DNA from: Anaerolineae bacterium
GTDB lineage: Bacteria > Chloroflexota > Anaerolineae > DUEN01
Direction of reading: 5' to 3'
Assembly: GCA_025060615.1 (NCBI GenBank)
Contig: JANXBS010000001.1
Location: 1-64,000 of the forward strand
DNA length: 64,000 nucleotides
The position numbers and the translations under genes are program-made. Below are positions 24,336 to 28,344 of this stretch, one piece after another. How positions within the stretch are numbered: position 1 is the first letter of the stretch; each line of letters opens with the position of its first letter. The notes under the pieces were generated by a model that saw only the letters and a program-made list of their open reading frames with translations, was not told the DNA's origin and did not search any database.

Positions 24336-25751
24336 ATGTCACCTGGCAAGCAGATTACGAACCTCAGATGGCCTCGGGGAAGCCGGGACCGGCTGAGATT
24401 TTCTGAAAATCCTCTTAGAAGGTCCGTCCTGCGGGCTACGACTGCTGTCCTGCTCACGGTTGCGATGCTGATGCTGGGAAGGGGTGAACCGACGTATGCC
24501 ACGCAGCCAGGAGCCGTGATGGTGCTCGAGGTGCGTGGCGTGATTGATCCAGTGGTCGCCCAATACGTCGAGCGCGGCATTCATACCGCCGGCCAGTCCA
24601 ACGCCAGCCTGATTGTTATCCAACTGGATACGCCAGGCGGCCTCGACACCGCTATGCGGAAGATCGTGCAGGCGATCCTGAACTCGGATGTGCCTGTAGC
24701 GGTATTCGTTGCCCCCTCGGGTGCGCGGGCTGCCTCGGCCGGCCTCTTCATCACCATGGCTGCCCACATCGCTGCAATGGCCCCTGGCACCAATATCGGC
24801 GCGGCCCATCCGGTGGACATCAGCCAGGGCGAGATCCCATCTACCTTGCAGGATAAGGTGACCAACGACGCGGTGGCTTACATTCAGGCCATCGCTCAAC
24901 AGCGTGGCCGCAACGCCAAGTGGGCTGAGGAGGCGGTGCGGAAAAGCGTCTCACTGGCTGCCCAGCAGGCTCTGGAAAAAGGAGTGGTAGATCTGCTGGC
25001 ACGGGATTTGAACGATCTGCTCAACCAGCTAGATGGACGCAAGGTAAAGGTGAATGGGGAGGAGATGACGTTACAGATCGAGGCGAGCCCGGTGGAGCGA
25101 TATCCAATGACCTGGCTGGAGGTGATCCTCCATGGCATCGTAGATCCCAACATCGCCTACATCCTGCTCTCGCTGGGCACCATCGCCCTCATCGCCGAGT
25201 TCTACAACCCCGGCTCCCTCCTCCCTGGCGTGACAGGGATCATCTCCCTCATCTTAGCCTTCGTCGCCCTGGGCAGCTTACCGGTGAACTGGGGTGGCAT
25301 CGCCCTGATCGTGCTCGCCTTCATTTTTTTCATCGCCGACGTCAAAGTCTCCGGGGTCGCGTTGAGCGTCGCTGGCGTCATCAGCTTTGTGTTAGGCTCG
25401 CTGTTGCTCTTCAGTCCGTTCACTGCCTCCCCACCGGTCATGCCGAAGTTATCAGTTAGCCCCTGGCTGTTGGCAGGCATGACAGTGCTCATCGTCGCCT
25501 TCTTCGGCCTTGCGGTGACCGCGGGGCTGCGCGCCCAGAAGAGCGCCGTGCTGATGGGCCCACACGCCTTGATCGGCAAGACCGGCATTGCTGTCTCCGA
25601 TCTTGCCCCTCTGGGGATCGTCCAGGTACAGAGCGAGACGTGGACGGCCGTAGCCGTGGACGGCTTGATCAGGAGCGGTGAGGCCGTCGAGGTGGTCAGC
25701 AGCGATGGCCTACGCCTGCAAGTGCAGCGATCCCAGCAAGAACAGGAGTGA
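24336..25751 (+). CDS. NfeD family membrane-bound serine protease (long form)
   Basis: A 471-aa membrane protein. After a signal anchor (about 30-55) comes a ClpP-class serine protease domain: IQLDTPGGLDTAMRKIV, candidate nucleophile Ser in ARAASAGLFITMAAH, TNIGAAHPV and the Lys-bearing DKVTNDAVAYIQ. Four or five membrane segments follow, then the NfeD OB-fold (LIGKTGIAVSDLAPLG, VQVQSETWTAVAV). Long NfeD proteins cleave stomatin-like partners and are nearly always paired with them, as here. No strong ribosome site is seen before ATG 24336; a nearby alternative start is possible, but the signal segment fixes it roughly. Confidence 0.9.
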   Translation: MSPGKQITNLRWPRGSRDRLRFSENPLRRSVLRATTAVLLTVAMLMLGRGEPTYATQPGAVMVLEVRGVIDPVVAQYVERGIHTAGQSNASLIVIQLDTPGGLDTAMRKIVQAILNSDVPVAVFVAPSGARAASAGLFITMAAHIAAMAPGTNIGAAHPVDISQGEIPSTLQDKVTNDAVAYIQAIAQQRGRNAKWAEEAVRKSVSLAAQQALEKGVVDLLARDLNDLLNQLDGRKVKVNGEEMTLQIEASPVERYPMTWLEVILHGIVDPNIAYILLSLGTIALIAEFYNPGSLLPGVTGIISLILAFVALGSLPVNWGGIALIVLAFIFFIADVKVSGVALSVAGVISFVLGSLLLFSPFTASPPVMPKLSVSPWLLAGMTVLIVAFFGLAVTAGLRAQKSAVLMGPHALIGKTGIAVSDLAPLGIVQVQSETWTAVAVDGLIRSGEAVEVVSSDGLRLQVQRSQQEQE

Positions 25752-25756
25752 TCCCC

Positions 25757-26653
25757 ATGCAAGAGACCCTCGGCCTTTTAATCCCTATCCTCATCGTAGT
25801 GATCCTGCTGGTCCCGTTGCTATACTTAGCCATCAAGATCGTGCGCGAGTATCAGCGGCTGGTGGTGTTCCGGCTTGGCCGTTGCATTGGTCAGAAGGGG
25901 CCAGGCCTGGTGTTCCTGATCCCGCTCATTGATCGTCCAGTATGGGTGGACTTGCGCGAGGTGTACCTAGAGGTCCCTAAGCAGACCTGCATCACTAAGG
26001 ACAACGCGCCGATTGACATTGACTTCCTGATCTACTGGAAAGTGGTGGACCCGGTGGCCAGCGTGATCCAGGTGGGCAACTTCGCAGGAGCGTCCCAAGG
26101 TATCGCCACCACCACGCTGCGCGCGGTCATCGGCGATATCATGCTGGATGACGTGCTGGCCAAGCGCGAGCAGATCAACCAGGTGCTACGGGTGAAGCTG
26201 GACGAGGTGACCGAACGCTGGGGCGTCAAGGTGACTACGGTCGAGATCCGGGAGATCTTGCCGCCGCGTGAGGTCCAGACGGCGATGAACCGGCAGCTCG
26301 CCGCCGAGCGCGATCGCCGCGCCATGGTGACCGAGGCCGACGGCAAACGGGAGGCTGCGATTAAGGTCGCCGAAGGGGAGCGACAAGCCACCATCCTGCG
26401 CGCCGAGGGAGATCGCCAGGCGGCGATCCTGCGTGCAGAGGGGTTTGCCCTGGCGCTGGAAAAGATCTACAGCGTGGCGCGCACGATAGACGACAAGACG
26501 ATGAGCCTGCAATATCTGGATGCGCTACGGGCGATCGGCACCGGCCCTGCTACCAAGTTTGTCCTGCCTATGGAGTTCACTACGCTATTGCGGCCGTTTG
26601 TGGCCCACGCGGGCCAGGCTGTTGGGGGAGATCGCGAGGAGAAAAGCCCGTAA
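25757..26653 (+). CDS. SPFH/Band 7 slipin (stomatin-like) membrane protein
   Basis: A 298-aa stomatin-like protein: one N-terminal membrane segment, then the SPFH domain (REYQRLVVFRLGRCIGQKGP, GLVFLIPLIDRPVWVDLR, TTLRAVIGDIMLDDVLAKRE) and a long coiled coil rich in Ala-Glu (VAEGERQATILRAEGDRQA). It forms oligomers on membrane microdomains and is the expected partner of the NfeD protease just upstream. The start is taken as ATG 25757, 8 nt after CAGGAG; a GTG at 25748 would overlap the nfeD stop. Confidence 0.92.
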   Translation: MQETLGLLIPILIVVILLVPLLYLAIKIVREYQRLVVFRLGRCIGQKGPGLVFLIPLIDRPVWVDLREVYLEVPKQTCITKDNAPIDIDFLIYWKVVDPVASVIQVGNFAGASQGIATTTLRAVIGDIMLDDVLAKREQINQVLRVKLDEVTERWGVKVTTVEIREILPPREVQTAMNRQLAAERDRRAMVTEADGKREAAIKVAEGERQATILRAEGDRQAAILRAEGFALALEKIYSVARTIDDKTMSLQYLDALRAIGTGPATKFVLPMEFTTLLRPFVAHAGQAVGGDREEKSP

Positions 26654-28108: not shown

Positions 28109-28160
28109 GCTACAAAGCCAGAGGCCCTTCCAAGTGGAAGGACCTCTGGTGCGCCGTAGC
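28109..28160 (-). terminator. Strong hairpin downstream of the microgene
   Basis: Inner stem CCAGAGG-x-CCTTCC / GGAAGG-x-CCTCTGG (28118-28149) with a 4-nt loop and one mismatch, plus an outer GCTAC/GTAGC pairing (28109-28113, 28156-28160). On the minus strand it follows the 18-codon frame and is trailed by CTTTGT. It may be a terminator or a structured RNA. Confidence 0.55.
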
Positions 28161-28162
28161 AT

Positions 28163-28219
28163 TTAGCGGATGATCCGAGGTGATGCTACGGCGCCGTAAC
28201 TACTGCTACTATGCTCCAT
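28163..28219 (-). CDS. Predicted 18-aa microprotein with strong promoter and ribosome site
   Basis: The minus strand has GGAGGAGGTGAT, close to a perfect anti-16S match, 8 nt (from the GGAGG core) before ATG 28219. The frame reads MEHSSSSYGAVASPRIIR and TAA. A full promoter lies upstream (28317-28344) and a strong hairpin downstream. The reading frame is too short for homology-based recognition and I do not recognise it. It could be a regulatory leader peptide, a small secreted or signalling peptide, or part of a structured RNA in which GAGGTGATGC (28177-28186) pairs with GCATCACCTC (28222-28231) and hides the ribosome site. Confidence 0.5.
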   Translation of the reverse strand: MEHSSSSYGAVASPRIIR

Positions 28220-28316
28220 GGGCATCACCTCCTCCGTTTAAGATAGCGACGGAAGAGGCAGCAAAGCTGCCAATTTTTGACCCGATCTCAGCGACCAAGG
28301 GCTGAACTTCATCCCG

Positions 28317-28344
28317 ATTATGCACACATATCAGGGTCTGTCAA
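28317..28344 (-). promoter_or_regulatory. Promoter for the microgene unit
   Basis: Minus strand TTGACA (28339-28344), 16-bp spacer, CATAAT (28317-28322). It begins directly after the rluD stop codon. Its transcript carries a GGCAGC-TTT-GCTGCC hairpin in the leader before the ribosome site. Confidence 0.7.

Follow-up and report, generated by a model that had tools for sequence, protein, structure and literature searches.

Dual-function small RNAs such as SgrS/SgrT, SR1/SR1P and VcdRP also encode a small protein (e.g. PMC8501984, PMC8672173). The unit described here occupies 236 bp (28344-28109) on the minus strand of a 64,000-nucleotide stretch of an Anaerolineae contig, the whole of which was analyzed and is called the window. 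Like the dual-function RNAs, it is predicted from its sequence signals to be an independently transcribed RNA gene of about 190-200 nt, in which a strong promoter precedes a short frame equipped with a ribosome site, and a hairpin closes the 3' end. It differs from them in that frame and structure are interwoven, the stop codon sitting next to a helix arm whose partner lies within the frame. With the attenuator leaders of the trp, leu and thr type the unit shares a short frame in which codons recur, as well as helices that exclude one another and could be rearranged by a ribosome, but no conserved gene lies downstream of it, and its 3' hairpin takes no part in the competition between helices. 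As in Shine-Dalgarno/anti-Shine-Dalgarno riboregulators and RNA thermometers, the ribosome site pairs with a segment of the same RNA; unlike in those systems, the anti-Shine-Dalgarno segment lies inside the controlled frame, and this segment, or the stretch beside it, is also the partner of a segment past the stop codon.

Chloroflexi-1 RNA (RF01698) is a candidate RNA from the same phylum, Chloroflexota, listed for Chloroflexus aggregans only (PMC2864571); no RF01698 match was found at the locus or at the units of its relatives. A search of the whole window against Rfam 15 returned no match at gathering scores, and a search of eight loci, with relatives, returned none on the unit. Open-licence papers on Chloroflexi RNAs and short frames yielded no description of it. 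The RNA family is absent from Rfam 15 and previously uncatalogued, and it is found across Chloroflexota. A tmRNA was considered and rejected, ARAGORN having reported no tRNA or tmRNA gene in four unit-bearing loci.

The unit is confirmed to be a real gene and not a chance arrangement, and the finding is stronger than was claimed by the sequence-only reading, which had proposed a regulatory small RNA or a microprotein gene with a self-occluded ribosome site, lying between rluD and the queuosine genes. That proposal is supported by conservation of the frame, the pairing, the promoter and the 3' hairpin, and the location is as described: the 5' gene encodes a pseudouridine synthase with an S4 domain (the rluD of that reading), while 3' of the unit lie genes for a Vut_1/YhhQ-type transporter and then QueF, the next gene being on the same strand as the unit. 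The features of the window copy, from 5' to 3' along the RNA, are these.

28317-28344, minus strand: sigma-70-type promoter, TTGACA-N16-CATAAT, consensus score 11/12
28242-28247, minus strand: conserved box GC[CT]ATC, seen in two alignments, about 7-12 nt 5' of the ribosome site
28222-28235, minus strand: ribosome site GGAGGAGGTGATGC, near-invariant in 100 aligned sequences
28222-28231, minus strand: p1, the pairing arm GAGGTGATGC of the ribosome site
28163-28219, minus strand: 18-codon frame MEHSSSSYGAVASPRIIR plus TAA, open in 99 of 100 relatives
28199-28210, minus strand: AGT AGC AGT AGT run, a GUA/AGU repeat early in the frame
28185-28194, minus strand: p2, GCGCCGTAGC, 5' arm of the main covarying helix, pairing with p4
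28177-28186, minus strand: p3, GCATCACCTC, in-frame anti-Shine-Dalgarno segment, able to pair with p1 by complementarity
28151-28160, minus strand: p4, GCTACGGCGC, 3' arm, beginning two bases after the stop codon
28114-28149, minus strand: GC-rich 14-bp hairpin (stem 28149-28118) with a short T tail, a candidate terminator

Promoter, ribosome site and frame were found where they had been claimed, at 28344-28317, 28235-28224 (GGAGGAGGTGAT) and 28219-28163, respectively, and the TTGACA-16-CATAAT site is the only promoter-like site of the region. Other claims needed revision. The pairing between ribosome site and frame exists, but its two arms had been interchanged: GAGGTGATGC is in the ribosome site and GCATCACCTC in the frame. 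The strongest helix had been overlooked altogether, namely that of GCGCCGTAGC (28194-28185) with GCTACGGCGC (28160-28151), or p2:p4. The 3' stem is present, at 14 bp including one G-U pair where 13 bp had been given. The GGCAGC/GCTGCC leader hairpin can be formed at 28271-28257, but the aligned relatives do not have it, and it is ruled out as a part of the conserved unit.

By DNA search, matches to the unit occur in 18 of 40 related genomes, its own aside, and nearly all of them fall within the part that begins just 5' of the ribosome site and ends with the 3' hairpin. Of 396 genomes of the class, 243 contain a match to a covariance model that was derived from the unit and represents the majority form, and nearly all of these have a single match; the window's own genome has one, with a strong score. 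The same model has no match in 38 genomes of other phyla, chosen for holding a similar Shine-Dalgarno/anti-Shine-Dalgarno pattern. Weaker matches in the rest of the phylum revealed a second form, and the model of that form makes strong matches in many other Chloroflexota, where weak matches were not counted and chance matches in other phyla reach at most 28 bits. Units read from the phylum-wide matches have the same anatomy as those of the class. By pattern scan, the full anatomy occurs, among the matches listed, in Anaerolineae, Chloroflexi, Caldilineaceae, Thermoflexus and similar lineages, and Chloroflexus aurantiacus J-10-fl, C. aggregans, Herpetosiphon aurantiacus, Sphaerobacter thermophilus and Thermobaculum terrenum appear to be carriers. 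One exact pattern of the unit, searched in viral contigs, had no match. A usually single-copy small RNA gene with a near-consensus promoter and a phylum-wide distribution is a rare combination.

Loss of the frame or the stems in close relatives had been named as evidence against the unit; frame, ribosome-site pairing, promoter and 3' hairpin are kept across the class and beyond. A promoter scoring at least 9/12 precedes 139 of 151 units, compared with 12 of 151 shuffled sequences, and a strong hairpin lies 3' of p4 in 145 of 151 units, compared with 7 when shuffled, the shuffles in both cases preserving base content and nothing else. The hairpin is a probable transcription terminator with a weak T tract, and in the window the T tail falls short of a strict T-tract terminator rule. 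The ribosome site (p1) is near-ideal throughout, with the shared sequence GGAGGTGATG. The GC[CT]ATC box is near-invariant in the majority form, and a covariation scan detected no partner helix for it.

Support for the main helix comes from covariation. In the majority form p2, which lies just upstream of p3 and runs into it, pairs with p4. Over 100 aligned majority-form sequences, 99.6% of p2:p4 cells are paired, with double changes in eight of the ten pairs and in 122 cells, compared with 20 cells in shuffles; the alignment was fitted to a model that already contained this helix. Controls with the arms slid all collapse, and the p2:p4 pairs also top an unguided covariation ranking made on the model-fitted alignment. 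The ten core pairs of p1:p3 behave differently: 998 of 1000 cells pair, nearly all changes in p3 opposite p1 are G-U compatible, and the helix is almost fixed because the ribosome site is fixed. Since two of the variable positions of p3 are third codon positions, the constraint on this pairing may partly reflect coding. Duplex energies are -17.0 kcal/mol for p1:p3 and -19.8 kcal/mol for p2:p4.

In the second form (25 sequences) p4 pairs with p3 itself. Its p3:p4 cells are 94.5% paired, with double changes in 13 cells compared with 2.6, and its p1:p3 cells are 96.8% paired; these two helices are mutually exclusive because both use the same p3. In the majority form the partners of p1 and p4 adjoin and overlap by 2-4 nt, and p1:p3 and p2:p4 could coexist as an H-type pseudoknot, a static lock and not a switch. 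In nearest-neighbour folding without pseudoknots the ribosome site is predicted to be paired in every state, and adding p4 shifts this only slightly, and such partition-function folding does not support a clean thermodynamic on/off switch. Single cases, such as the unit at locus L181, do fold as a switch.

In 99 of 100 sequences the reading frame that follows the ribosome site runs uninterrupted to a stop at p4, compared with one of 100 for each of the other two frames. A first stop counted if it fell no more than 12 nt before, or 6 nt after, the beginning of p4, and the position of p4 was taken from the covariance model and not from the stop codon. Frame lengths are 14-21 codons except for one broken copy of 9. 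This copy belongs to a single-contig Anaerolineae SSC4 genome (loci L009/L120), in which the frame ends early, after 9 codons, although every RNA element is still present; a sequencing indel is possibly the cause. The segment p3 is read in the same frame in 95 of 100 majority-form sequences, and in other frames in the remainder and in the second form. The shared frame opens with Ser codons of the AGU type, and in most units GUA/AGU repeats keep a constant phase relative to the codons; 134 of 153 units contain GTA, compared with 49 expected from shuffles, and 234 of its 239 occurrences are in the same codon phase.

What comparison establishes, at the level of sequence, is the set of parts, both helices, the open frame, its stop at p4 and, in the second form, the sharing of p3 by p1 and p4. 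From these a cycle can be proposed. The ribosome site p1 would be held shut by p3, the anti-Shine-Dalgarno segment within the short frame, and p4, just past the stop, would pair back into the frame, either with p2 beside p3 or with p3. The 3' end of 16S rRNA, whose sequence is general knowledge, is the natural competitor for p1; no match to it was found in the window's assembly. Only the ribosome, through this 16S end, would be able to compete p1 off p3. While translating, it would melt p2/p3:p4; at the stop codon it would cover p4, and p3, re-emerging behind it, could close p1 again. Translation of the unit thus probably refolds the RNA, and with each round of translation doing so the RNA would act as a sensor or a limiter of translation initiation. 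The reading we favor, a mini-mRNA or regulatory RNA whose ribosome site is gated by the internal anti-Shine-Dalgarno segment and reset by translation, has in our judgment an even chance of being correct. Because conservation of the peptide is weak, the event of translation, or capture of a 30S subunit, is suggested to matter more than the product. More speculative, and on balance somewhat unlikely, is an extension of this reading in which the unit would be a housekeeping RNA, common to the whole phylum, that senses translation by setting the 16S 3' end against the in-frame anti-Shine-Dalgarno segment, each passage of a ribosome resetting the fold, and that gauges or buffers free 30S subunits with neither a conserved peptide nor a target gene in cis. 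The design, with a perfect ribosome site, an in-frame anti-Shine-Dalgarno lock and a post-stop arm that competes for the lock or adjoins it, would give a compact and testable case of translation controlling RNA folding without a downstream gene.

A frame kept open in 99 of 100 sequences might instead mean that the 14-21 residue peptide is the product and that RNA structure merely limits its synthesis. The N-terminus does recur, as MD.SS or MSS, and codon 2 is GAY in 91 of 153 units with both Asp codons equally used. The 5' part of the frame has a slight synonymous excess (33 of 91 single changes, compared with 23.7 expected, p = 0.02), which leaves room for a functional peptide; in the tail the excess is not significant. 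Against a peptide product, the C-terminal half is set by RNA-constrained segments read in different frames by different lineages, giving VASP, GIT, HHL and RITS forms, and the use of AGY for 250 of 273 Ser codons is a preference at the nucleotide level. Constraint on the amino acid sequence is weak, and we consider a microprotein gene unlikely. The same shortage of peptide constraint, together with the very long Shine-Dalgarno complementarity and the near-consensus promoters, would suit a decoy that titrates excess free 30S subunits, its short frame letting captured ribosomes exit cleanly. Titration alone does not explain the conserved helix past the stop, and we regard this reading as improbable.

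A further reading is pairing in trans. Strong ribosome sites are complementary to p3 (ATCACCTC), which in the majority form sits in the loop of the p2:p4 hairpin, and from there it could pair with the ribosome sites of other mRNAs, making the unit a dual-function or antisense small RNA. Yet p3 is perfectly complementary to the ribosome site of its own RNA, it is itself part of the p4 stem in the second form, p2 and p4 covary fast, which argues against their being seeds for target pairing, and the selected open frame is left unexplained. An Hfq-bound small RNA, suggested by the fit of the AGU run to the ARN motif, was rejected: in 26 related genomes no Hfq scored over the Pfam cut-off, with three weak matches, while control genomes were positive. 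An antisense role is accordingly quite unlikely. A strong ribosome site, a short frame with a run of codons for one amino acid, alternative helices and, in the window, a next gene on the same strand would all fit a leader peptide or attenuator for that gene, here YhhQ-QueF. This explanation is largely refuted and very improbable: neighbor families differ between genomes, the closing hairpin has no sequence in common with p4, and, as judged by a simple longest-frame gene caller, the downstream neighbor is on the same strand in 80 of 148 loci and convergent in 68, an orientation near random. Because its neighbors vary, the unit is a free-standing gene and not a leader, and the link to YhhQ-QueF that had been suggested from the window finds no support. 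As for a chance intergenic arrangement, nothing beyond the low prior of a reading made in a single genome speaks for it; conservation and covariation across hundreds of genomes, and the lack of matches to the majority-form model in the genomes of other phyla, refute it, leaving it a negligible probability.

Some features of the surroundings may be recorded. The commonest convergent downstream neighbor, at about 27 Anaerolineae loci (e.g. L015 and L007), is an HNH-endonuclease-like gene. At locus L187, in what is probably the Herpetosiphon aurantiacus genome, the unit points towards an rRNA operon, whose 3' end (5S/23S) converges on it. A T-box leader (L181:839-1081) lies about 1.9 kb from the unit at that locus. 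In the window itself, positions 24336-26653 encode an NfeD1b-type protein followed by a Band_7/SPFH protein, a typical gene pair.
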